From Loxodes magnus (Eukaryota; Ciliophora; Karyorelictea; Loxodida; Loxodidae): 64,000 nucleotides of DNA. Position 1 is the stretch's first letter; the number at the start of each line of letters is the position of its first letter. Below the pieces are notes generated by a model. That model worked only from the letters and a program-made list of their open reading frames with translations. It made no database searches and had not been told where the DNA came from. Positions 4,426 to 64,000 of the stretch are shown here, one piece after another. The position numbers were made by a program, and so were the translations under genes. The DNA lies in contig CAMPDV010000097.1 in the NCBI GenBank assembly GCA_946699065.1, forward strand, positions 434,001 through 498,000, in the 5' to 3' direction.

Positions 4426-4436
4426 AATAAATAAAT

Positions 4437-4851
4437 TAAACAAATAAAATTATTATAGAACGTGTAGCACCTCATTTGCGTGCAGCTCTTTCAATATTAA
4501 TATTTAATATTAAGAAAAATGTTCTCTTGCTTCTTGTAAAAACTCTTGAAGTCCAATGAGTCATGTCAGCTTCTCCAAATGGGGAATCTTCTTATTAAAA
4601 ATTATTCTAAATCTTGAGTCAAATGCTTCAGTCTTCTTGAATAAGATCCAAATAAGAGATAGTTATTAAGTCGGTAATAAGAAGGCCTGTTAGTCAAACT
4701 TTCATACTGCTAGAGAAAACCCTCGGGGTAAGCTAGGTATGTCTCAACGGAGTTTATCCATTCTTCCCTGTAGTGGCCTCTAGTGTGAGATTACTCACAA
4801 TGCAGTATACACTGCACCAGATTACCTACTAGTTTGGCTGACGACGCCGAC
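4437..4851 (-). mobile_element. SINE-like element, full copy in minus orientation
   Basis: About 415 bases nearly identical (roughly 94%) in inverted orientation to 9549-9968. Read on the minus strand, the head at 4851 begins GTCGGCGTCGTCAGCC. It continues with a D-arm/A-box-like segment (CTAGTAGGTAATCTGG) and, some 30 bases on, a T-arm/B-box-like inverted pair (GTGAG..CTCACAC), as in tRNA-derived SINEs. The other end is the shared tail GAGGTGCTACACG...TATAAT followed by A/T-rich DNA. No long reading frame with coding character. A plain non-autonomous retroelement is the best reading; a structured RNA gene family is the alternative. Confidence 0.6.
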
Positions 4852-7350: not shown

Positions 7351-7610
7351 AAATTTAATTTATTAATAAAGATATATGAATGAAAAGATTAATATGTATA
7401 AAGGAAAATAATTATAACAACATAAGAGGAAGTGAAGAGAACAGTGTTAGGAAGTAATTTCGCAGTATTTTGAGTTTATTCCTAACAAAATAAACTAAAA
7501 ATTTGATTGACTTAAAAATTATACATAAAAATAAAAAAGTAGTAATAAAGATAATTTTAAACTTAAAAAATAAAGAAAAATAAAAAGCATTAAATGATTA
7601 TGTTTTAAAA

Positions 7611-7910
7611 GTTATTAAAAGTTATTAAAAGTTATTAAAAGTTATTGAAAGTTATTAAAAGTTATTAAAAGTTATTAAAAGTTATTAAAAGTTATTAAAA
7701 GTTATTAAAAGTTATTAAAAGTTATTAAAAGTTATTAAAAGTTATTAAAAGTTATTAAAAGTTATTAAAAGTTATTAAAAGTTATTAAAAGTTATTAAAA
7801 GTTATTAAAAGTTATTAAAAGTTATTAAAAGTTATTAAAAGTTATTAAAAGTTATTAAAAGTTATTAAAAGTTATTAAAAGTTATTAAAAGTTATTAAAA
7901 GTTATTAAAA
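7611..7910. repeat. tandem array, 30 x 10 bp (GTTATTAAAA)
   Basis: Exactly thirty 10-bp units, 29 identical and one with a single change (GTTATTGAAA, 7651-7660). The unit places an A4 tract every 10 bp, near the helical repeat, so intrinsically curved DNA is expected. In the ciliate code it has no stop in any frame apart from the one variant unit, and all frames give the same cyclic decapeptide VIKSYQKLLK. It lies 260 bases after the decayed kinase-WD40 gene. No flanking gene clearly includes it. Confidence 0.97.
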
Positions 7911-8718
7911 AAGTTAAGATAATTTGAATAAAATAAAATGATAATTATTTTTAATATATTACAGATATTTTAGTTTATATTTAATGTTAAAACAATTTTA
8001 AGGGAATTTAATTTAATTTTATGTAGATAATGTTTTGTAGAAATGTCAGATAGTTTTAAATTTAAAAAAAATAAGAAAAAATCAATATAATTTTTAAAGA
8101 TTGATTATGCTTTAAAAAATGATTGGAGATAAGATGTTATATGGAGTTAGAATTTAGTAATAAATTGCACAATAATCAATCGAGTGATAGTAGATTTAAT
8201 ATTCTTTTAAAAATAAAATAATCAAAAATAAATTAAATAATAATATAATCTACTAAAACTATGATTTTGAGTTTAATGTAATTAAGTTTAATTAAAATAA
8301 TAAGAAAGTAAAAACTTAAATTAAACAAATAATTTGGTATGATTTAAAAATTAAAATATATTATTTTAAGATAATAGATAAATAAATATAGTTTTTGCTA
8401 AAATTTTTAAAGGAAAATTAAATTTTGTAAAATATGTAAGTGAATAAGCAAGGGAAAGTGAAAAGAGAAAATGTAAAAAAATAAAAAATATGTTTTGCTC
8501 AGTGTTTTGATCTTTAAGATATTTGGAGTACTGAATAAAGTTTTAAAAAAGAATATTTAAAAAAAAAGAAGGAAATAAGGTAAAGATAAAAAGAATAAAA
8601 TGATAGGAATATTGGATAAAATTTTAAAAGGAAAAAGTACTTTTAGAAGGTACATAAATCATTTTTTTAATATAAAGAAAGTAAAAATAAAATTATTTTA
8701 AAAAAAATAAAAAGAAAA

Positions 8719-9548: not shown

Positions 9549-9968
9549 GTCGGCCGCGTCAGAAAAAATTAGTAGGTAATCTGGTGCAGTGTATACTTCA
9601 TTGTGAGTAATCTCGCACTAGAAGCCACCACGGGGAAGAGTGGATAAACTCCGTTGAGACATACCTAGCTTACCTCGAGGGTTTTCTCTAGCAGTATGAA
9701 AGTTTTACTATCGGGCCTTCTTATTACCGACTTAATAACTATCTCTTATTTGGATCTTATTCAAGAAGACTGAAGCATTTGACTCAAGATTTAAGAATAA
9801 TTTTTAATAAGAAGATTCCCCATTTGGAGAAGCTGACATGACTCATTGGACTTCAAGAGTTTTTACAAGAAGCAAGAGAACATTTTTCTTAATATTAAAT
9901 ATTAATATTGAAAGTGCTGCACGCCAATGAGGTGCTACACGTTCTATAATAATTTTTATTTGTTTATT
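9549..9968 (+). mobile_element. SINE-like element, full copy in plus orientation
   Basis: Inverted partner of 4437-4851, about 94% identical, running from head GTCGGCCGCGTCAG to tail GAGGTGCTACACGTTCTATA and A/T-rich end. The A-box-like TTAGTAGGTAATCTGG lies at 9568 and the T-arm-like pair GTGAG/CTCGCAC follows about 30 bases later. It sits just downstream of the coiled-coil ORF at 8719. The reading frame shown by its opposite strand in the standard code is incidental. Confidence 0.62.
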
Positions 9969-10329
9969 TACTAAAAAAATATAATGAATTGAAAAATAGG
10001 GAGAAAACAAAAAATTCGTAATAAGAAAGAATATAAAAAGAAATAAAAAATAAAAAATAAAATAAATTTTGAAAATAAGATATTGAGAGAAATAAAAGCA
10101 TAAACAGAGAAGATAAATAAATTTCACTTTGAGATTTAGAGAAAAAAAGCCTTTTAGATAAAACAAAACTTGCAGAAAATTTAAGTATTTAAATTAAAAG
10201 GTTTTAAGATTAAATTGAATTGAATTAATTTACGTGATTTCATCTTTATTTGGCTAACCAAAAATCAAAAGTTTAAAGTTAAATAAAAGAGACTTCAAAT
10301 TTACTTGAATCTTGTTTATCATACGTTCT

Positions 10330-18415: not shown

Positions 18416-21400
18416 ATGAAATTTCTTTTAATTATCTTCTTTCTAGCTATTTCTCTTGCTTAATGAAGATAATTTCCAGATACTCTGACTCCGCCCTCGA
18501 GACGATATTATGCTTATGGAGCTTTAAGTTAAAAATAAGATATCTTTTTAATTTCAATGGGAAGAGCAGATGGAACTGTGATTTTTGATGACACTTGAAT
18601 GCTTAATATGACCAAAAAGAAATGAAGCTTCTTACCTTTATCAAATGATCTTAGTCCTGAACCTAGATATGGCGGATGCTCCTTCTTTATTGAAAATAAA
18701 AAGGCTATGCTTATTTTTGGAGGATAATCAATTTATGGACCTTCTAACGATTTATGGACATTTGAGTTAAAAACCAACGAATGGTAGAAAGTAATAGTTT
18801 CTGAAGATAAACCTGATCCTAGATATCGAGCAGGCTGCGATATTGTTTTTCAAGAAAACGGAGACTTTTTAATGTATGTTTTTGGAGGAATGGGATTTGA
18901 CGGAGAATTAAATGATGTCTGAGTTTTTAGTCATAAATCGTCAAGTTGAACTTAAATTGAAACTACAGGAACCATTCCTATAAAATAACGTAATCCCAAT
19001 GTCGTAATTGATAATAACGAACTGATAGTAAGAAATATTGGTTTTTATTAAGACTTCGATATGTATATTCTTAATTTGACTAGTGCAGTTTGGAGAAAAT
19101 AGAAAGTAAACCCTCATCCTACTTGGTAATATCTAACTGATACTTGCCATTTTAAAGACCAGAAAAAAACATACTTAACATCTGGATGATCTGATTAAGA
19201 CATAAATGACGATGTAAGAGAGTTATGAGAACTAGACTGGTCTGATCATGATAATCTAACTTGAAGGCTGTTAGAAGTAGAAAACTGGCCCGGTTTCGAA
19301 AGAGATTCTCATTTAACAATCTGCCATAAAAACTAAATTTGAATGACAACAGGATGAACATATGCAGGATTAAAAAATGATATAGTAGTTTTAGACTTAA
19401 TTTAGCCTAAGTTAAAATGGGAAATTATTTCTGATGATTTCGATTCTCCTGAACCTTCATCCTTTCATAGTATGAATATCATATCAGGAAACGCATATGT
19501 GTTTGGAGGAATAAATTCTAAAAGTCAATTACTAAATAGAATCTGAAAATTAGACTTAGAAAAGTGAAATTGGCAAATGTTACAGGTATTTGGAGAATTA
19601 CCTGAAGAAAGATATGGACACGTCGCTGCAGTACATGGAAATTTTTTGATGATCTGGGGAGGCTAAGGATAATAAAAGATTCTTAATGACTTATATAAAT
19701 TTAATAGTAATAGTAAAACTTGGGAATATGTTCAATAAAAGAATGCTCCTACACCTAGAAGATTCGCATGTGGAGCAATGACTGGAAAATATTTTTACTT
19801 ATATGGAGGCGCAACAATATCAGGAGTTACAAATGAACTATGATAACTAGATCTAGGATCAAATGAATGATCGCTAATAAACAAGGATTAAAAATATCCT
19901 AGCAAGCTTGTTTATTGTAATATGTATTCGTTTTAAAATAACTTGTACATTTTATTGGGGTAAGATGCATTAGATTAACATAACAATAACATCTATATTT
20001 GAGATATGACAAAGCAAAAGTTTATGTCGGAGATACATTTATGAAGAGGAGAAGGAAAATCTGCATATGGCGCTGTTGATTAACATTTAGCCTATTATGC
20101 CGGAGAATATTGGGGAGCTTACCCAAGCGATGATTTATATTCCGTAGACCTAAATAAAGGAACATTCAATAAAATAAAAAATCCATAAAACGAAACATGA
20201 CCTCCTCTTGTTTATGGTCATGCTATGGGCTATTATAAAAGAATGATTTTGCTCTTTGGTGGAGTTTATGTGAGAGGATTGATGAGTATTGAAAAAAGGT
20301 CAATTAATCAATTTTGAATATATGACATCTATAAAAAGTGTAAAAGAAACGACACATTATGTGAATGGTCTTGCAGTTATGGAACTTATGATGATGGAAC
20401 TGGAGAATGTAAGCTTTGTCCTAGAGGTACATATACTAACCAAAGTAACTTTTGCAAGAAATGCCCGAAGGGAATGGAATAACCTAATTTAGGAGCTTCT
20501 TCTTAAAGATAATGCTAACCTTGTCCAAATGGCTTTTATAGCGATGAGGAAGGAACTGAGCTTTGCAAATAATGTCCAAATGGTCTTTAATGCTCAATAG
20601 GTTCGACAAGTCCTGTTTTGATTTAGCAGTAATAAATTGAATATTCTGAGTAACCTAAAAACTATGAAAATAAGCAAGATGATGTGACTAACTATAGCTT
20701 CCAAATTAATATATCAGTTACTATTGCGATTTTTATACTGGCTCTTATATTTTTATCAAAGAGCTGAATTTAAGATAAACTAAAAACGATAGATTTATTC
20801 GAAAAAAACCACAACTATGAACTTAACTAATTCATGAAGCTTATGAAAACTTCCATAGGAGGGCTTTTTTCTTCTTTCTTTATAGTCTTAGCCTTAGCCT
20901 TGATTTTAAATAATCTCCTTAATTTTATTTTTGATAATATTATTGAGAGCAAGGCACTTATCCCTTACCTAATTATGAAAGAGACTTATCCACATATATA
21001 AGCAGATTTAAGATTTATTTTCAAGTTTTCCTCTTACTAAGGAATGTGCTAATCGAAAGAAAGTTAAAAAGAAGAATACACTGAATGCAATCAAGAAATT
21101 GACTATATAACAGGAGGTTTTTCGAAGAATCTAAATTCAAATTTTTGGTAACCAATTTAATGTAAAAAAATAAAAGAAGATTGCTACGTAAAAATTTAAT
21201 GTCAATCTTGTGAAGTAGCAGGACCTTCGTATATCCAACTAAGCCTTAAAGAAGAAAAGTCTTATTCTTCGTCTATTTAGTTTAACGTAACTTCTACTTC
21301 TTCCATTCCAAATGAAGTATCGAGTATAGATATTTCTATCAATCCTGATCCTTAAATGATATTTAGAGGTCCAGAACCATCAATTTTAGAAGTTTTAATA

Positions 21401-22180
21401 ATACCTTCTGCCTTCGAAACTAACGATCCAGAGTAGTCAAAGTATGATGGCTAAACAGGTTACCATGTAATGAACTCAGGATATTACTATAAAGGAACTT
21501 AATTTTCTAGCACTGAAATGTAGTTTAGTTCTAATTTATATGCTAGAATCAACCTTAAGCCTAGTGAAAGCTCTCTTTTAACCAAATAAACTCTTAAAAC
21601 TTCCGCTTTTACTCTAATTACCGCTGTTCTAGGATCAGTTTTTGGACTTATGGGAGTAATAGGAAAAGTAATGAGCTTCATAGAAAAATACCAAAACGAG
21701 AGAGAAAAAAAGAGGGAAAAAGTGTTTGATACGGCTAAAAATTGGAACTTTATGAGATAGACAAAATATTTAAGAGAGTAACAAAATATAAATCCTTTAA
21801 AAATAAAGTAGAAAGCTAAAAAATTTTCAGTTAGAAAAGCAATAAAAAGGCTTCATGAAAGAAGATCATCGCATCAAGTAGTTCCATCATTTGGAATAGA
21901 AGATATGTATGAAGAATGTTCTGATTCAATTTCTCCTTTATAGTAGCATCTTGATCTTTTAAAGTAGTAGTAGCAATAGTAGCAGAAAAGCAAAATATAG
22001 AATTAGAATGCCTCGACGGAGTACCTGAATTCAATAAAGTCTTAAGGTTAAAATTTAACTTTTCCTGGTAATTCTATATTATGGGGAGAAAATATTAGTT
22101 AACAACATAATTTTAATGTAAAAGCTAATATAAATGAAGACTCGGAAATGAAAAGCTTAATTTGTGAAAACATTGAATGA
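18416..22180 (+). CDS. kelch-repeat / GCC2-GCC3 multipass membrane receptor-like protein
   Basis: 1254 codons from ATG 18416, uninterrupted, no intron needed. Residues 1-16 are a signal peptide (MKFLLIIFFLAISLAQ). Residues ~20-620 hold kelch repeats with the expected aromatic, GG and Trp pattern (LIFGGQSIYGPSNDLWTF, MYVFGGMGFDGELNDVW, AYVFGGINSKSQLLNRIW, FYLYGGATISGVTNELW), so an extracellular beta-propeller. Residues ~640-735 are Cys-rich (CSYGTYDDGTGECKLCPRGT, CKKCPKGMEQP, CQPCPNGFYSDEEGTELCKQC), matching GCC2/GCC3 domains of ciliate surface proteins. Hydrophobic helices lie at ~764-784, 814-839 and 1064-1086, followed by a basic, Gln-rich tail. TGA encodes Trp 19 times, the last at codon 784; none follows until TGA 22178, taken as the stop. 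The frame then stays open to TGA 23180, so a longer protein is possible. Likely cell-surface binding or sensing; ligand unknown. Confidence 0.92.
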
Positions 22181-26747: not shown

Positions 26748-26829
26748 GACACTTTGGCCGAGTGGTTAAGGCGATGGCCTGCTAAGCCATTGGGAATTTC
26801 CCGCGTGAGTTCAAACCTCACAGGTGTCG
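26748..26829 (+). tRNA. tRNA-Ser(GCT), copy 1
   Basis: Complete 82-nt class II tRNA. The acceptor stem GACACTT pairs with AGGTGTC, with discriminator G. D-arm GGCCGAGTGGTTAAGGC, anticodon loop CTGCTAA in stem ATGGC/GCCAT giving anticodon GCT (Ser AGC/AGT), long variable arm TGGGAATTTCCC, and T-arm GTGAG-TTCAAAC-CTCAC (B box). CCA is not encoded. A T5 run follows directly as a Pol III terminator. Identical in sequence to the minus-strand copy at 36420. Confidence 0.98.
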
Positions 26830-27384
26830 CTTTTTACTTATTTTATTTTAATTTATAAATATAAAATTTAATTTATGAAAAATAGATTAATTAATTAAAA
26901 TAACTATTTAACTTTCAGCTTAATTGAAATTTTAATTATATAAAATCTCTGTTCCTACATTTTCTATCTTTGCATAGTATTTTTTTATTTCTCTTCTTTT
27001 TATATTCTGAGTTAAGAATTCGTTTTTCCTCCTTGGTTTTCCCATTTCTGATGGTAAGAATTCCGTCATTCTTTACTTCAATTCTAACAGTTAATATTTT
27101 CCCAAATATTCATTTTTATCTATTTCTATTAAGAAAATTCCTTTACAAATTTCAATTATTTTTGCAAATTAATGATTTTTTTCTTGTTCCTCAATTTCTA
27201 TGGGAGTTCCTTATAAAGTCTTCTGCAAATTTTATTCTACTAATTGGGATCTTTAATCTATCTTTACTTAATTTTTCTCATCTTAATCTCTCATTATTCA
27301 AATATCATTCTCTAATCCTTCCATTCGTTCCTATACCCAGGCTTTAGTAATTCGATCTACTATAAACCTCATCATCACCCTCAT
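26818..27384 (-). CDS. unidentified ORF, 188 codons, 3' end inside tRNA-Ser
   Basis: From ATG 27384 (minus) the ciliate-code frame is rich in first-position G and reads like protein: MRVMMRFIVDRITKAWVQER, then NLQKTLQGTPIEIEEQEKN, IIEICKGIFLIEIDKNEYLG and MTEFLPSEMGKPRRKNEFLT. It uses one TGA as Trp. The first later in-frame TGA (26820-26818) falls 12 bases inside the antisense of the tRNA gene. Either the real end is earlier, or the tRNA-bearing segment cut off the gene. No family recognised. Confidence 0.42.
26830..26836 (+). terminator. Pol III T-run terminator
   Basis: CTTTTT directly after the tRNA discriminator base. Confidence 0.75.
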
Positions 27385-34000: not shown

Positions 34001-36419
34001 GTCTTTATTATATGTACTTTCATAAATTTCTTGTGCTGCTCTAATATCAACTTATTATGATAAATTATTTCTTATTCCATAGTACTCAGTATTTAGGTCC
34101 TAAGTTACTAAACCATTCATCTTCATTATAACCAAAACACTTTATTAATTAGTCTAATAGCAGCATTCATTATTTACAACTTACCCCCTCTATTTATTTT
34201 CTATTTCCTACTATTTCATTCCATTGAAGCATTTATATATAAGAACTTCAATAAAGAAAAAAAGGGTAGATTAACTTATCCAAAAGTAAAATAAAATAAT
34301 AATTATAGATATTTCAAAGCCTTAATAATAAAGAGGCTATATATATTTCTAATAAAAGGCTAAATATATCTCTAGTCAATTAAAACTGATTTAAAGGAAA
34401 TCAGTTTAGAGAACTTTTATCGATAATAATAATTTTAAATCCTTTTATTAATTTTAGCTATCACTTTTTATTTTCCTTTATTTTCCTCATAAAAAAGAGA
34501 AGATAGTAAAATTTAAGAAGATGCAACTATACTAAATTATAAGGTTAACTTGATTAGTTGTAGAGCTAAACAGAAGAAGATATTTCAAAGATCTAGGAAT
34601 AAACCTTATTGGTAAAGCTATAAGATTGGAAATTACAACAAGCTTTTATCTTTTAAATTTGGAAAGAACGGTATCTCTTATATCTAAATAAAGAGATAAA
34701 TATTTAAAATCAGAAGATAAAAGAAAAAGAACCAAAAGTTATAGATATATAAAATGATTCAAAGAAAACTATCTGGAAATAGATAAAGGTTTCATACCCT
34801 AATAAAAATAAATTTATATTCATTTAGTAATTTTTCTAGAGTTACTACAAGATTATCTTCAAAAACAAAGATAAATTATAAAATCCAATTTCTCAAATAA
34901 AAAATATATAACTAAATAAATAGCACTAAGAAAATTAACTGAGGATAAGATACCAGTTCTCAATTCTAATTCGTTTAAGGATAATATTTCAAAAGAAATA
35001 GCTAGAAATTTCCAAAGAATCAGTGCTGCTTTTGTATTATATTTTAAATTTAAAATAGTGGAAAAGAAAATTAGAATATAAAAGATTATAAAAGCTAAAA
35101 ATCTAAATTAGCATTCTTTGATTTTTTCAAAGTTAAGATAAAAAGCTATTATTTAAAATTATTCCATAGCTATAAACTAAAAACGTTAGATATAAAGAAA
35201 AGAATAAAAAAGCTTAAAATTTTAAAACTTACACAAGTTGAAAACAAAAAAGCGCTTCCCATTTAAATCAAATTATAAAACTAATATTTAAAATTATTTT
35301 ACGAGCTATCAAATTTTTAATTGAAAAAGACAACTCTAAAAAAGTATTTTTACTCCAAAAATTATTAAAATTTTCTTAAATTATAAAAATAGCAGTTATG
35401 CTAAGTTAAAAAGTTAAAAATCAATATAATCAGGCTACTAAAAATGATTATAAAACTATAATATTTTAGAATTGCTACAAATCCACTACTAATAATTAAA
35501 ACATTTAGAAGCACATTTAGTAACTTTTATTATAATAAGGTTATTAATCTACAATTTATATCAAAAGGTTTAGAAAAAAATTGCAAGAGATTTTCAGTTT
35601 ATAGAGCATGATTAGTCTTTAATGATATCTCTTTGAAAAGTTAGAGTTATATTTCAAGATTAAAAGTTAAAACTTTTGGTTCTTGAATATTCTTAAAACA
35701 TAAAAGCAAACGTTATCATATCTAGCAATTTTAAAAGAAATAAATTTAAAAGGCTTAACTTCAAGTCCTTATATTTAAATACATAGCTGATGAAAAAGTT
35801 ATCTTCATTAAAACTTTGCTACATCTAAATTTATTGAGTTTTGAAATATAAGTAAAGAAGTATTTATATATGTAATCATAAAGCATTTATTTTAACTAAC
35901 TACATCTAATATTTATTTGAATGCATATTATATCGAGTAACTAGGTGTATAATAAAAATTATAATTCGAGCTTTGTAATTATCAATCCTTTAATTTAAAT
36001 CTTAAAAATTTAGCTGATAACTCCTTAATCTTCTTTAATCATTCTTATATAATTAAATTATGGTTAGTTTTTAAATAATTACCTATAAATCTTTTATCTT
36101 AATTAATTATAGCTTTAATTAGACTCTTTTGTGTGCTTTTTTCTGAATTTTAGACGTTTGATTTTACCTTTTAATACTTTAACTTCTTTTATCTATTGGT
36201 TTGAATAGACTTAAGATGCTAAATCTATATCTTTTAGATCTACAGCAAAGTATTATAAATGTTATGATTCGCCTTCTAATTTAGTTTTAAGTTATTTTAA
36301 GATATTTTAGCTTGCTTAGATGCTGCTAATTGAATTGTTTTATAAGATAGGAGTGGGAGTAAAATAAATAATAGAGAGTAAATATAAATATTGTCATTAA
36401 TTATCTACTATAATAAAAG
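34000..36419. other. AT-rich stretch without recognisable gene
   Basis: No motif, RNA gene or repeat seen until the second tRNA. Open frames here are expected by chance under the code. Confidence 0.4.
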
Positions 36420-36501
36420 CGACACCTGTGAGGTTTGAACTCACGCGGGAAATTCCCAATGGCTTAGCAGGCCATCGCCTTAACCACTCGGCCAAAGTGT
36501 C
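36420..36501 (-). tRNA. tRNA-Ser(GCT), copy 2
   Basis: Base-for-base identical to 26748-26829 but on the opposite strand, 9.6 kb away. About 34 bases of 5' flank are also shared (GCTATTTAAATATGCTTTAT and following), while the 3' flanks differ after the terminator (CTTTTATT). Same structure, anticodon and internal promoter boxes; probably functional. Confidence 0.98.
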
Positions 36502-39441: not shown

Positions 39442-39813
39442 TCAGCTTTTTTGTCTGATGTTATGATTGTAGAAAGTAAAATAACACTGTCTGCAAAGAC
39501 CTCTTGCATATAACTTGCTTTTTAAATGTGCACATCTACGCTTTAACTCTCCATGCTGTTCAGAATAACATTTTCTACAATATTTAGTATTTTCGTAAGT
39601 CCTCCTGGGACAATTCCTACACTTAGTCATTCTTTTCCTTTTCTGTGGCAAAAGCTTCAGCAAATTTAAGGGTAGGTCTATATTGATGCTTGCATTCTTC
39701 ATAGGCAAACTTGGTAATTCTTTATTGAAAGGCCACTAGGGATCGAAATCAAGCTGCTTCATATCTTTCAACAAGCTAGGCATTCCTTTAAAAACAAAGC
39801 CAACGACATCCAT
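39442..39813 (-). CDS. small double zinc-binding protein, 123 aa
   Basis: ATG 39813 to TGA 39444-39442, with one TAG read as Gln (DPQWP). Acidic/hydrophobic N-terminus, basic hinge (LLPQKRKRMTK), then two zinc sites: C65-x2-C68-x10-C79-x2-C82 and C94-x-H96-x10-C107-x2-C110. The second has the LYARGLCRQCYFTFYN signature seen in small protist and plant zinc proteins (CxH...YARGLCxxCY). Likely nucleic-acid or protein binding in nucleus or cytosol; no catalytic residues. The next upstream ATG would not add conserved sequence. It is a clean example of TGA used as stop in this genome, and converges on the membrane-protein block to its left. Confidence 0.8.
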
Positions 39814-53584: not shown

Positions 53585-55577
53585 ATGACTGCAGGGAATT
53601 AAGATAGCATATCAATAATAGAACAGTATAAAAATATGTATCAGAATAATATGACAAAATGAAAAAATTCTCAGCAAGAAGGATGATTACAATCTTTTAG
53701 AGAGAATAAGAGAAATAATGACGTATATTGGGCAATTTAATTAGAAACAACATATTTAATGAAATGATTTGTTCAAAAATAAAGCAATTAAAAGAAAAAA
53801 GATGCGACTTTGATCCTAATTCAACTTAGCTTAGGAGATTTAAATGATAACTGAAGTAACAAAGACTGATAATTCGACTAATAAAGTAACCCATAAGTCA
53901 GAAATTTAAAAAGACGAAATAACAAAAAGATTGTAAAAAGTATTGAATTTTATTCTTAAAAAATTAAAACAGAAATATAAGATAAAAAGATGATGATATA
54001 TCAATTCTTTGCAAAATCTAATAAAACTTTTTAATTGTTTAAAAACTATTAAAAGAAAAATAAATAAAAAACACTTTGTCTAAATAGCAATAGAGTCTAT
54101 AAAAAATATTGTAGAAAGAAGAAACCTTAGTTAATGGAAGAAGATTGACGACTATCATATAAAAAATGGCGCGATATTCAAATCTCGATTAAAAAATTGA
54201 AGCTGGAACTGGCAGAAAACCTATAGGAAGAAAAATTTATTAAAATTCTAAATGAAAATTTAAAATAAAGCATGATGCATATTATTCGATTTTTATATTT
54301 AATAGATTCGATATAAATCCTATTTGAGGTGCTTAAATTGAATAAATATCAACTCATAATCCAATATTCAATATTTTCTTTAAAGTTAATTATGTTTTTG
54401 AAGTAAAGTTCTTTTTCCAATAAATTGATCAAAAAAATTGTAATAATTTAAATTAAAAACTAAATAATTATATAAAAGTTAAAAGGGTTTGTTCTTTTAG
54501 AATATTATCTATTCCATAATCACATAAAAAAATGTTTTCAGTTAAATTTTTTATATTTAACACTCTAGCTTGTATTTTGTGCAAGTTGCAGTTTAAAAAA
54601 TTGAGAACGTGTTTGATAATTTTTTAAAGTATTTCCGAAATTTATTTGAAAATAAATTAAATATCTCCTAAAATATATGGATGCTTCAAATCAAGTTTTT
54701 TTATCCCCTTCAAGAAGGAGAGGAAACCAGAATCCACCCTCAGTCATTCTTCTTTTACTTAATCCTAATCTTTTTCTTAATAATCCGGAAAATAGGCTCA
54801 AGAAGAACTGAAGCGATCTAAGAATATCACTCATGCAATCATCCCAACGATCAGGAGAAGCTCAGAAAGCAGATGAAATCTGCTTTGCACGAGAAGGTCT
54901 CAGAGTTCAATCCTTCTGGCCATATAAGCTTGGAACAGCTCATCAAAGTGGTACTAAACTTCCAAGAAGAGATCAAGAAGCAAAAGAAGAACAATTAGAA
55001 GCTAATGCAATACCTTAACCTAGCGGAAGGAATAGAATAAGAACTTATGACCTGGGAAAGAGAGCTAAGTGCCTTTTGGAACATATTACAAAATCGGAAT
55101 AGTTAATCCTAAAATTAGCTTCAGAAGTAGACTGAATTGGAAACAGACTTGAAAAATAGAAAAAAAGCCTCAACGATAAATAGAGTAAAGTTAGCTAAGA
55201 AATGATCCAATCATTGAAGAGGAAGATACAAGAAAATCTAAAAGAATTCAGAAAAGATATTATTTTTATAATTCTGGAGAACATTTATGAAGGAGATGCA
55301 AGAAATTCCTAAGATTCAAGAACCAATTCTAGATAAAGCAAAGAAAACAGTAAGCGCAACAAAGGAAAGAGAACCTACTTTATCAGAAAAGAATCAGAGA
55401 AAGATTATATATGAATGAGCTGGAAATATCTACAGGATGAAATCAGAAAGAATGAAAGATAAAACTGAAGATGAAAAGATCAATTGAGAGAGAGAAAAGA
55501 AAACATAAAAACCTTTTTTTTAATTCCACAGCAATCCGGTAATCGCACATGAAGAGGTAAAATTCCTCAAAGATTGA
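53585..55577 (+). mobile_element. coiled-coil ORF family 1, copy B (two ORFs)
   Basis: First ORF from ATG 53585: MTAGNQDSISIIEQYKNMYQ, KWKNSQQEGWLQSFRENKRN, TLILIQLSLGDLNDNW, EEDWRLSYKKWRDIQISIKK. Strong coding character, with TGA as Trp. It does not resemble the first ORF of copy A. Second ORF from about 54677: a Ser/Gln-rich start (KKERKPESTLSHSSFTQSQS), then HISLEQLIKVVLNFQEEIKK, LMQYLNLAEGIEQELMTWER, coiled coil, and C-terminus SNPVIAHEEVKFLKD at TGA 55575. This ORF is related to copies A and C. It is probably broken and of unknown family; no enzyme motif seen. Confidence 0.5.
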
Positions 55578-55921: not shown

Positions 55922-58900
55922 TCACTTATGTTTCAAAATTTCAACAATTTCTTTTGCTTCTATAAAACTTTCACAATCATTTAATAAACATTTTGCATAT
56001 CCTTCATCCCTTCTTATTTATCCAAAATTTTATTAAGATCTTTTAATATGAATCTTCAAACACTTATAACAAAACTAATGCCCACATTGTAACTCTAACA
56101 TCTCTTCTTTTTGAAAAATTTTGACTTCATTTTGACTTTATTTATAAGAAAGGCAAGAGTTAGTTTAATTGCAAAGATAACCTTCTTTTGTCTTTTTTTT
56201 TAGATTTTTTTTTTTTTAATTTTCCCCCTATTTATTTTAGATTTTTTTCCCATCAAGGCAATAATTTAGAGGTTCTTATTTATTTTACTAATACATTTCA
56301 TTCTCTATCATCACTCTCCCTTTTTATTTATTCATATCTTATTATTATGCAAATTGAAAATTTTAATTTTATAACTAATGTTTTTATTCCTCTAACTCAA
56401 ATTCCTTCTCTAAATTATCTACTCATTCTTAATATACTTCATCTGGAAGAATTTCTTAAAAGTCAAAATTATTCGGTGCCTTACATAATGGACACTTTAA
56501 AAATTCATCTAACTATAGTATATTTACCTTTTACTTTCTTTTTATATTTTCTATCATTTTGACTATACACGCTTTGCAGTATTAATGATCACAAAGAAAC
56601 TAAAATGCTTCTATATTTCCATACTTATTAAGGCAATTTGAGGAGTCGCATTATGATTTTATTTTCTGTTAAATGTTTATATTTTTTTATTAATCTTCTT
56701 CTTAAAATCATTTTTATAAAGTCAGCGATCCTACTAGAAATTCTATTAATTCAATATTTAACTAAACACTACACTTTAAAGGACACTTTATTTCTTAAGT
56801 AATTAAATCGTTTAAAACCATATTGTTTGCTTTCTTTTGTTGAATTAAATGATTTTTTAAGCATTCTCTACAAATAATATGTCTGCATTTAAGCTATATA
56901 TTTCACTATTCTTTTGCATTATATATGCAATTATTATTTTAACATATTCCCATTTCTTTGTTTACAAATACCCTATTTTTTATCATTTGATCACTATTTA
57001 TTTTTGAAATAAGTTTATTTTCTTCTATTTCTTCATTATTAAATCACTCTTAATATTCTTATTTTTATTTTTCGGCTTTATTCAATTCAATCTCCTAATG
57101 TTATATTTCTTTTTATCTTTAATTTGCTTAAATCTAATACATTTCATACAGTTCTTCTCCTATTGTTTTTCTTATTTCTTCATTTGAAATATAATAAGTA
57201 CAATCTTATTTAGCACACCTCACTTTTTTTTCATCATTTACGCTTATCATCTTTTCTTCAGTTATAAAGCTTATTCTATTATAGAGACAATTTTTACAGA
57301 AATGGTGATTGCATTTTAAAATAATAATATCTTCTTTTGGAAATTCCTTAGAACATTCTAAACATCCATAATAAATTGTAACTTTTTATTAATTAGGCTT
57401 TTATTATAATTTTTATTAATTTTATTCTTCTTAAGGATTTATATTTAGAACGTTTTATATATATCTATCGTTAGCTTTTTTTTAAACTTGATCAAATTCC
57501 TCTTTCACTAAAACTTGTTAAACTTCTTCGTTGGATATTCCATGAAGACAGGTATATTAAGGACATTTAACTGCCTTTTATTAGCAATAGTTATAAACTT
57601 TTAGTTTGTTTGTGAGCTTAGATAGTTATAGAAGCATTTCTTACAATATTAATGATTACATTTTAGAGTTACTATCTAGTCTTTTGTGAAATAATTTAAA
57701 CATTCTTTCATCTCACATCTTACTTTTTAATCAATTTATTTAACATTCGCTTGATGATTCTTTTATTTTTGAAGGTTTTAATTTTCTTGATTACTAAGAT
57801 TTTTATTAACAGAGGATAATTTTTCTTAGTGATATTATTACAGTTGATTATTTTAAACTTAAAAAGCAAGATTTTCTTAGTTTTTATTCATTTAAGAGAG
57901 CTTTTACTTTTATTAGAGTTATAATAATTCTTGCTATTACAGCTGCTCTTTTTTCCATTAAATCTACATTTTGATTTGATGTATTTATTATTCCTATTCA
58001 TTTAGTTTCTGTTAGTTTTATTATATTTATTAGAAGGATTGATTGTTTAACTATTTATATTTAACAACTTCTTAGCATATTTTTTCTTTATTCAATTGAA
58101 TATTTTAGCTTTTGTATTGAATTTCGTTTATTTGCTGGTTAAGATTATTGTTTTAGTTTGTTAGATTCTAAATGTTTTAAAGCAGGCAATTTTCTTACTG
58201 TTATGCTTAGTTCCGAGCTCAGTTAAGTTGTTAAATTTCGTTATTAACTTAGCTAATATAAGAACTAGCTTATCTTTTGATTTCTTCTAAGTTAAGCTAG
58301 TGATTATAATCAAGCTCGTTTTCAAAGCTTAATCCAAATTTTTATTTTAGATCACTTAACTATTATTAAATCTAAGGCTCCGATACTTAGTTAAATGGTA
58401 CGTGTTGTTGAGTTATTTGATTTTCATTCTTTTCTTTTATTGGAGAAGTTCTTTCCTACAAATTATTCTAGATAATTTTATTTTCTTCACTTTCCTCGTT
58501 TTATTTTTCAAAATCATTTTGCTATTCTTTCAAAACTTTTAGCAGTGAGTTATCTTATATTTATTAATTGTAAGATTAATAAAGTTAAAGCAAGCCATCT
58601 TTTATTTCTGGAATCTTATTTTATGCTATTTACCCTTTCTCTGGTTTTTTAAATTCTATCTCATATTTTTTTAATTTTTCCTATTAGATAATTCTTTCTA
58701 GCAAGACAATTTTATTTTCCAATTCTTCTTTTTATTAGTTCTGAAGTATAATCTGTTACTCATAATTTTATTATAGTTCCAGAATTTCCTTTATAATAAA
58801 AATAAACTTACACTATCTTATTTCTATTATTTTATTTCTAATTATTAAATCTGTTTTTAAAAATTCTAGCAATTTACGCAGAAAGTTGTTTTTTCGCATC

Positions 58901-63522: not shown

Positions 63523-64000
63523 ATGGATACTTTAAATCCTAATTACAACTTATAAAACCCTAGTTATATAGCTCAACAACAAGTGCCATTTAACTAAGTA
63601 TCGGAGCCTTAGATTTAATAATAGTTAAGTGATCTAAAATAAAAATTTGGATTAAGCTTTGAAAACGAGCTTGATTATAATCGCTAGCTTAACTTAGAAG
63701 AAATCAAAAGATAAGCTAGTTCTTATATTAGCTAAGTTAATAACGAAATTTAACAACTTAACTGAGCTCGGAACTAAGCATAACAGTAAGAAAATTGCCT
63801 CCTTTAAAACATTTAGAATCTAACAAACTAAAACAATAATCTTAACCAGCAAATAAACGAAATTCAATACAAAAGCTAAAATATTCAATTGAATAAAGAA
63901 AAAATATGCTAAGAAGTTGTTAAATATAAATAGTTAAACAATCAATCCTTCTAATAAATATAATAAAACTAACAGAAACTAAATGAATAGGAATAATAAA
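63523..64000 (+). CDS. shortened paralogue of RING-array protein, 5' part
   Basis: ATG 63523: MDTLNPNYNLQNPSYIAQQ, then VPFNQVSEPQIQQQLSDLKQ, FENELDYNRQLNLEEIKRQ and a Gln/Asn-rich coiled coil to the window end. From 63572 on it is 99% identical to the coiled-coil region of the minus-strand gene. The first ~16 residues are new, and the N-terminal RING and first 380 residues of the long form are absent. RING modules presumably follow outside the window. It is read in the same frame as the parent with no lesion seen, so it may be expressed as an alternative form. Confidence 0.72.
63572..64000 (+). repeat. inverted duplication, right arm
   Basis: Partner of 57984-58412; similarity is still running at the last base of the window. 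Confidence 0.97.

Follow-up and report, generated by a model that had tools for sequence, protein, structure and literature searches.

Codon exchange among paralogs and conserved gene ends point to TGA as both tryptophan codon and terminator in a kelch gene of Loxodes magnus

Introduction

Where a genetic code reserves no codon for termination alone, what a given codon means can vary with its position along the mRNA. Karyorelict ciliates, Loxodes among them, use one such code, NCBI table 27, in which UGA is the sole stop and is also read as Trp if it lies far enough from the poly(A) tail; the published meaning of UAA and UAG under this code is Gln, and coding UGA and UAA, though not UAG, are depleted over the ~20 codons before the stop (PMC11441545). 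For Condylostoma and Parduczia, it has been proposed that ending near the poly(A) tail is aided by poly(A)-binding protein (PABP) and eRF3 (PMC4967479). Swart and colleagues are reported to have identified a tRNA-Trp(CCA) with a 4-bp stem in Loxodes (PMC13092985; see also PMC12005148), and a Ser70 to Gly change in eRF1 has been tied to UGA readthrough in Blastocrithidia (PMC12153298). The eRF1 of Loxodes striatus is printed with RAQNIKS, FLCENTF and Ala, and work cited in the same paper indicates that UGA-only specificity in Loxodes needs both eRF1 motifs together (PMC4695839). Here, we analyse a stretch of 64,000 nucleotides from Loxodes magnus (the window; GenBank assembly GCA_946699065.1, contig CAMPDV010000097.1, positions 434,001 to 498,000 of the forward strand) that holds a kelch-repeat gene with TGA, TAA and TAG in its frame. 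An earlier interpretation based on the letters of the window, here called the sequence-only reading, had assigned it to code 27. Code 27 in Loxodes magnus is already published, and is therefore not new; we describe how the codons of this gene and of its relatives in the genome compare with it.

Results

A kelch gene with in-frame TGA, TAA and TAG

The kelch gene and the codons discussed below are listed here, with positions counted from the first letter of the window; rows are those of an alignment of the gene with its paralogs, described in the next section.

18416 to 22180, forward strand: kelch gene, a single frame of 1255 codons including the terminal TGA
18464 to 18466, forward strand: first putative sense TGA, codon 17; TGA in 34 of the 34 rows having the column
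18920 to 18922, forward strand: putative sense TGA, codon 169 (NDVW); 20 TGA and 15 TGG in 35 rows
19340 to 19342, forward strand: putative sense TGA, codon 309; 17 TGA and 18 TGG in 35 rows
19841 to 19843, forward strand: putative sense TGA, codon 476 (NELW); 32 TGA and 3 TGG in 35 rows
19868 to 19870, forward strand: putative sense TGA, codon 485 (NEW); 33 TGA and 2 TGG in 35 rows
20765 to 20767, forward strand: internal TGA nearest the 3' end, codon 784; conservation is poor in this column (8 TGA, 13 GAG, others), hence weak for Trp
22178 to 22180, forward strand: terminal TGA; TGA in 14 of the 15 rows reaching the column

Counting codons gave exactly the 19 internal TGA that the sequence-only reading had reported, together with 15 TGG, 48 TAA, 18 TAG, 17 CAA and 4 CAG; the gene ends at a twentieth TGA. 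The motifs that had been offered as examples of TGA at Trp places, NDVW, NELW and NEW, are all spelled with TGA, and the similar motifs NDLW (codon 114) and TNEW (codon 123) have TGG. When translated with table 27, the protein has strong matches to kelch-repeat models (best E 7.1e-90) and also matches ephrin-receptor-like repeats. Its layout is a signal-like N-terminus, a kelch beta-propeller, a Cys-rich ephrin-receptor-like region and membrane-spanning stretches, the signal and the membrane stretches being judged by eye.

The sequence is low in G+C (GC, 0.18-0.31), and the number of in-frame TGA codons does not exceed chance: 25.8 would be expected from the mononucleotide composition, and counts in the remaining five frames range from 7 to 57. 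Since in-frame stop counts lie close to random expectation, we dropped the raw count as evidence. What is above chance in the kelch gene is the placement of TGA and its exchange with other codons, not its number.

In-frame TGA exchanges with TGG among kelch paralogs

The kelch protein matches 36 places in the genome (all those scored, out of 999 candidates), and 12 of these lie on the contig of the window, on both strands and including the gene of the window itself (C97:57724-456240, L012-L026). PMC11441545 does not use the words kelch, gene family or receptor in its main text. The alignment has 35 rows, comprising the gene of the window and 34 paralogs; the one match left out is on C3121. To keep the alignment from favouring Trp, TGA, TAA and TAG were all entered as X in the protein sequences that were aligned. 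We picked as Trp columns those in which 25 or more cells are TGA or TGG and 5 or more are TGA. The resulting 25 columns comprise 875 cells, of which 610 are TGA and 217 are TGG, together 827; the gene of the window contributes 15 TGA and 10 TGG. For example, codon 61 has 30 TGA and 5 TGG among the rows, and 20 of 35 rows have TGA at codon 386, where the gene of the window has TGG.

This choice of columns favours a high share of TGA and TGG, and hence a count of changes is the fairer test. Because the paralogs share descent and some are near copies, we counted changes by parsimony, using a midpoint-rooted tree made from 774 other columns. In frame, the count covers the 59 columns in which 30 or more rows are represented; out of frame, it covers full 35-row columns. 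Of 125 inferred in-frame changes of TGA, 73 are exchanges with TGG; the corresponding numbers are 24 of 219 for frame +1 and 15 of 462 for frame +2. The kelch gene is under purifying selection; away from the Trp columns, pairwise differences are 0.305, 0.213 and 0.433 at codon positions 1, 2 and 3.

These data bear on two explanations that need no change of code. Under the first, the kelch frame would be a decayed copy, and its TGA, TAA and TAG would be ordinary stops. Decayed copies do look like frames full of standard stops, the TGA number is near random expectation, and 2 of the 34 paralogs (L024 and L026) change frame. However, each of the 35 members has a one-frame match over 1,148 to 1,262 aligned positions, the substitutions show codon periodicity, and TGA-TGG exchange occurs mainly in frame, which makes a pseudogene very unlikely; in addition, in-frame TAA and TAG occur in both eRF1 genes and in-frame TGA in several dyneins (see below). 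All told, we give a pseudogene a vanishingly small probability. Under the second explanation, the TGA positions would lie inside very short introns and be spliced out. Short introns are indeed usual, with an average of 19 bp in Loxodes and a length of mostly ≤25 bp in the species (PMC11441545). Within 6 codons of the Trp columns, though, paralog differences are 0.320, 0.217 and 0.446 at the three codon positions, nearly as elsewhere, and only 5 of 325 columns near the Trp columns have gaps. This codon-like pattern, together with the in-place replacement of TGA by TGG, argues against introns, to which we assign next to no chance.

The frame change in L024 and L026 lies near the 3' end in both paralogs, and L026 has a KRGKKRKKEE-type repeat at the site.

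Dynein tails compared with other organisms

Kelch proteins in the Protein Data Bank (PDB) proved weak as an outside check on Trp, and we therefore used dyneins. The dynein heavy chain C-terminal domain has 46 matches in the genome, of which we took 19: the first 6, and 13 chosen for reaching the end of the profile, some of them without the upstream part. We set four TGA-containing tails against solved dyneins, entering TGA as X, and counted cells by eye over 2 or 3 alignments per tail. The nine TGA codons gave 22 aligned cells: 13 Trp, 4 Phe, 3 Gln and 2 Val. The nine misses come from four of the nine codons: the two at 'WNWDG-' account for 5 cells, the one at 'NIPYE-' for 2, and the one at 'GAIG-' for 2 of its 3. 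No masked TGA cell aligns with Cys. An alignment of Trp columns was one of the checks that the sequence-only reading had proposed for itself, and it bore that reading out both in the exchange of TGA and TGG among kelch paralogs and in the 13 Trp among 22 dynein cells.

TGA at conserved gene ends

In the 19 dynein tails, the first TGA after the conserved last Trp is 14 codons on in 16, 13 codons on in 2 and 20 codons on in 1; the position 13 or 14 codons on, seen in 18 of the 19, coincides with the end of the aligned solved dyneins. The search looked for TGA, so the identity of the codon follows by construction, although its location does not; most kelch stop counts likewise sought TGA, and the dynein and kelch counts thus leave room for other stops. 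Matches to the kelch protein among L013-L026 mostly stop within 3 codons of its terminal TGA (that of L026 stops before it), and GC drops from 0.283 to 0.193 across this codon. Both eRF1 genes have TGA at the place where known eRF1s end. The conserved location of these codons suggests that UGA also ends genes in Loxodes magnus.

We then compared codon use in the last 20 codons with that further upstream. In the dynein tails, TAA makes up 0 of 19 Gln-type codons near the end and 122 of 269 further upstream; TAG makes up 10 of the 19, and 7 of those 10 are in one homologous column. The kelch count covers 32 of 35 genes, L024, L026 and L044 being dropped for a frame change or another tail. In these 32 genes, TAA falls to 6 of 48 in the last 20 codons from 1550 of 2722; for TAG, the counts are 19 of 48 and 536 of 2722. 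None of the 640 codons in these tails is TGA, as against 698 of 39,138 upstream, a difference that is partly by construction. The stop is fixed by the alignment in 14 of the genes; elsewhere it is the first TGA near or beyond the alignment end. The depletion of TAA is gone in these 14 best-fixed genes, and we therefore do not rely on it; TAA directly precedes the terminal TGA in three of them. TGA is 0 of 280 codons in the 14 tails and 309 of 17,196 upstream (P = 0.011), and there is just one TGG in these tails too. Thus, the published avoidance pattern is seen in part here and is not decisive.

The sequence-only reading had also named two further genes, both on the reverse strand, as ending at TGA:

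55922 to 55924, reverse strand: proposed terminal TGA of the RING gene; common to an 84% paralog, TAA in a 40% paralog
39442 to 39444, reverse strand: proposed terminal TGA of the candidate zinc gene; TGA present at the site

TGA is present at both sites on the reverse strand, but the RING end is weak and the zinc TGA gives no evidence either way. The RING gene itself has weak RING matches, below Pfam cut-offs. The 84% paralog is alike in the bases following the TGA as well, so a shared TGA says little. The 40% paralog (C97:504666-505418, L076) has TAA in the end column, and its next in-frame TGA is 43 codons on; the paralog may end at UAA, be extended or be decayed. For the candidate zinc gene, a search of 152 codons against Pfam gave no match at E values up to 0.1.

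These ends bear on a Condylostoma-type code (table 28), in which UAA and UAG would end genes besides UGA. The lack of TAA in the last 20 codons of the dynein tails looks as if TAA were still partly a stop, and in the 40% RING paralog TAA takes the place of the terminal TGA proposed for its relatives. Against this, dynein and kelch tails have TGA at the conserved end, TAA is undepleted in the 14 fixed-stop kelch tails and stands right before TGA in three, and the RING paralog may be decayed or extended. UGA is also named as the sole stop in PMC11441545, and UGA-only motifs of Loxodes eRF1 are cited in PMC4695839. We consider table 28 highly improbable.

tRNAs and release factor

A tRNA-Trp pattern has 228 matches in the genome at ≤2 mismatches; among the 100 matches listed, 99 have one identical CCA form and one has GCA. 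ARAGORN reports tRNA-Trp(CCA) in the four loci taken. The first pair of its anticodon stem is non-standard, with A opposite C, and 4 pairs remain. Long tandem arrays of this tRNA lie at C67:482321-491201 and C148:155462-169182, with units of ~187 and 241 bases and an identical matched part (among the matches listed). By contrast with the CCA version of the pattern, which as a control recovers known genes (9 in L047), tRNA-Trp(UCA) has 0 matches across the genome in this pattern search, which is not a full tRNA scan; a looser UCA half-pattern has 1 match, which is not a tRNA according to ARAGORN or Rfam. The search for tRNA-Trp(TCA) that had been suggested as a check on the code therefore came back empty as far as the pattern reaches.

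The tRNA result and the alignments both bear on the amino acid. A further alternative holds that TGA stands for selenocysteine or Cys rather than Trp. TGA is a selenocysteine codon in many eukaryotes. In Euplotes, it is read as Cys (PMC4695839). Yet of 65 kelch columns with TGA, 2 also have TGC, 0 have TGT and 32 have TGG, no Cys appears in the masked dynein columns, and no UCA tRNA was found by pattern. The chance of either amino acid is so small as to be practically negligible, and Trp is the meaning that we carry forward.

A pattern for UUA and CUA tRNAs has 496 matches at ≤1 mismatch, all of them UUA among the 100 matches listed; the CUA form has 2 exact matches, and ARAGORN and Rfam accept examples of both tRNA(UUA) and tRNA(CUA). 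These tRNAs probably carry Gln. TAA and TAG exchange with each other and with CAA and CAG; TAA often exchanges with AAA and GAA too, both in and out of frame.

Two eRF1 genes lie on C196 (L010:1456-2766 and L011:1456-2766), each of 437 codons including the stop. Compared with human eRF1, TASNIKS is replaced by RAQNIKS and YLCDNKF by FLCENTF; at human positions, Glu55 and Ser70 are both Ala, and 125 is Phe. Since these motifs are printed for Loxodes striatus in PMC4695839, the eRF1 changes were already known. All four Trp codons in both genes are TGG, with no sense TGA, and the genes have 20 and 21 TAA/TAG codons. Further in-frame TGA codons follow the stop, 3 and 5 codons on in L010 and 3 codons on in L011. 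We considered self-regulation, but four Trp codons are too few for this. In L009, one more match to the eRF1_1 model, we found no NIKS; the protein is probably Pelota-like and was left out.

Other features of the window

Codon-usage scoring of the whole window detected the kelch gene, a segment at 54677-55567 on the forward strand and a short one at 2585-2800 on the reverse strand. The RING and zinc genes were not detected, and the scoring thus gave no wider gene survey. The segment 54677-55567 (forward strand) is coding-like by codon usage over 297 codons, has 6 TGA and 2 TGG, and adjoins the RING gene on the opposite strand; Pfam gives no match to it at E values up to 0.1. At 26748-26830 (forward strand) and 36419-36501 (reverse strand) there are two tRNA-Ser(GCT) genes that score equally in Rfam. 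A tandem array runs from 7495-7934 on, with a 10-base unit and 36 registered copies of a 150-base stretch. There are two long inverted repeats, each with arms ~5 kb apart: 57984-58416 with 63568-64000 (433 bases, 99%), which touches the window edge, and 4432-4835 with 9566-9970 (239 and 180 bases, 93-96%). They are possibly the ends of mobile elements or of duplicated genes.

Discussion

The genetic code used here is almost certainly the karyorelict code, NCBI table 27, of Loxodes magnus. The assignment made by the sequence-only reading stands, with TGA and TGG sharing Trp columns, TGA at conserved ends and the code published for the species. That UGA directs Trp insertion inside genes, and ending at their 3' ends, is suggested by conservation.

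Several observations weigh against this interpretation. The paralogs are related, some being near copies, so Fisher values overstate the evidence. The kelch TGA codons 529, 543 and 784 sit in columns that are non-Trp in relatives, 543 and 784 being variable and 529 mostly Tyr or Phe; they provide no evidence for Trp. Masked TGA columns 377 and 384 lack a clear Trp alignment in PDB kelch proteins, and 9 of the 22 dynein TGA cells are non-Trp. At the 3' end, likeness continues 12 to 19 codons beyond the kelch terminal TGA in L019, L023 and L024. Avoidance before the stop is uneven: none of the 19 Trp codons within the final 20 codons of dyneins is TGA, compared with 16 of 88 upstream (P = 0.07), and the 14 alignment-fixed kelch tails have no TAA depletion (3 of 6 as against 680 of 1193, P = 1.0).

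Under table 27, Trp would be inserted at internal UGA by the tRNA-Trp(CCA) with the 4-bp stem. An eRF1 altered in its codon-reading domain would lose the contest with these tRNAs except near the mRNA 3' end; there, the release factor may be helped to act on UGA by the poly(A) tail and the proteins bound to it, ending near the tail being favoured through PABP and eRF3. One idea for the avoidance of UAA before gene ends is a weak leftover recognition of UAA by eRF1. Taken further, Loxodes eRF1 might be graded near transcript ends, acting fully on UGA, weakly on UAA and not on UAG, with UAA a latent second stop truly used by few genes and the order set by Ala55, Ala70 and Phe125. The published avoidance of UAA, the absence of TAA from the dynein tails and the RING paralog with TAA would fit; the lack of TAA avoidance in the 14 kelch tails runs counter to it, as does the cited work in which Loxodes eRF1 motifs tested as UGA-only. 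We think such grading unlikely.

Whatever sets the stop, gene models for Loxodes magnus need table 27 and true TGA ends, since otherwise proteins are cut short or run on. The expanded kelch family, with Trp columns that mix TGA and TGG freely, is a handy test bed for peptides or ribosome profiles.

Comparison with known codes

The window and its relatives in the genome resemble table 27 as stated for Loxodes magnus, with UGA apparently Trp inside genes and also a stop, UAA and UAG open, and low GC after the stop (PMC11441545). We found no real difference from this published code, and the depletion of UGA and UAA published there is partly visible in the few families examined. Parduczia sp. is likewise a karyorelict with all three codons as sense codons and UGA at its inspected gene ends (PMC4967479). 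UGA usage there is 0.12%, compared with 698 of 39,138 codons lying more than 20 before the end in the kelch family, which is one W-rich family and not a genome average. In Condylostoma magnum (table 28), too, all three stops are sense codons, and genes end by nearness to the transcript end (PMC4967479). It also has a tRNA-Trp(CCA) with a 4-bp stem and no tRNA-Trp(UCA) (PMC13092985), and none was found by pattern here. Unlike in Condylostoma magnum, where all three codons can terminate, UGA alone is found here at conserved ends, bar one doubtful RING paralog. Blastocrithidia resembles Loxodes in that all stops are sense codons, tRNA-Trp(CCA) has a 4-bp stem and eRF1 is changed at human position 70 (PMC12153298). 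The two differ in that Blastocrithidia reads UAR as Glu, stops at UAA and has Gly at position 70 (PMC12153298), whereas in Loxodes UAR is published as Gln, the stop is UGA and position 70 is Ala.

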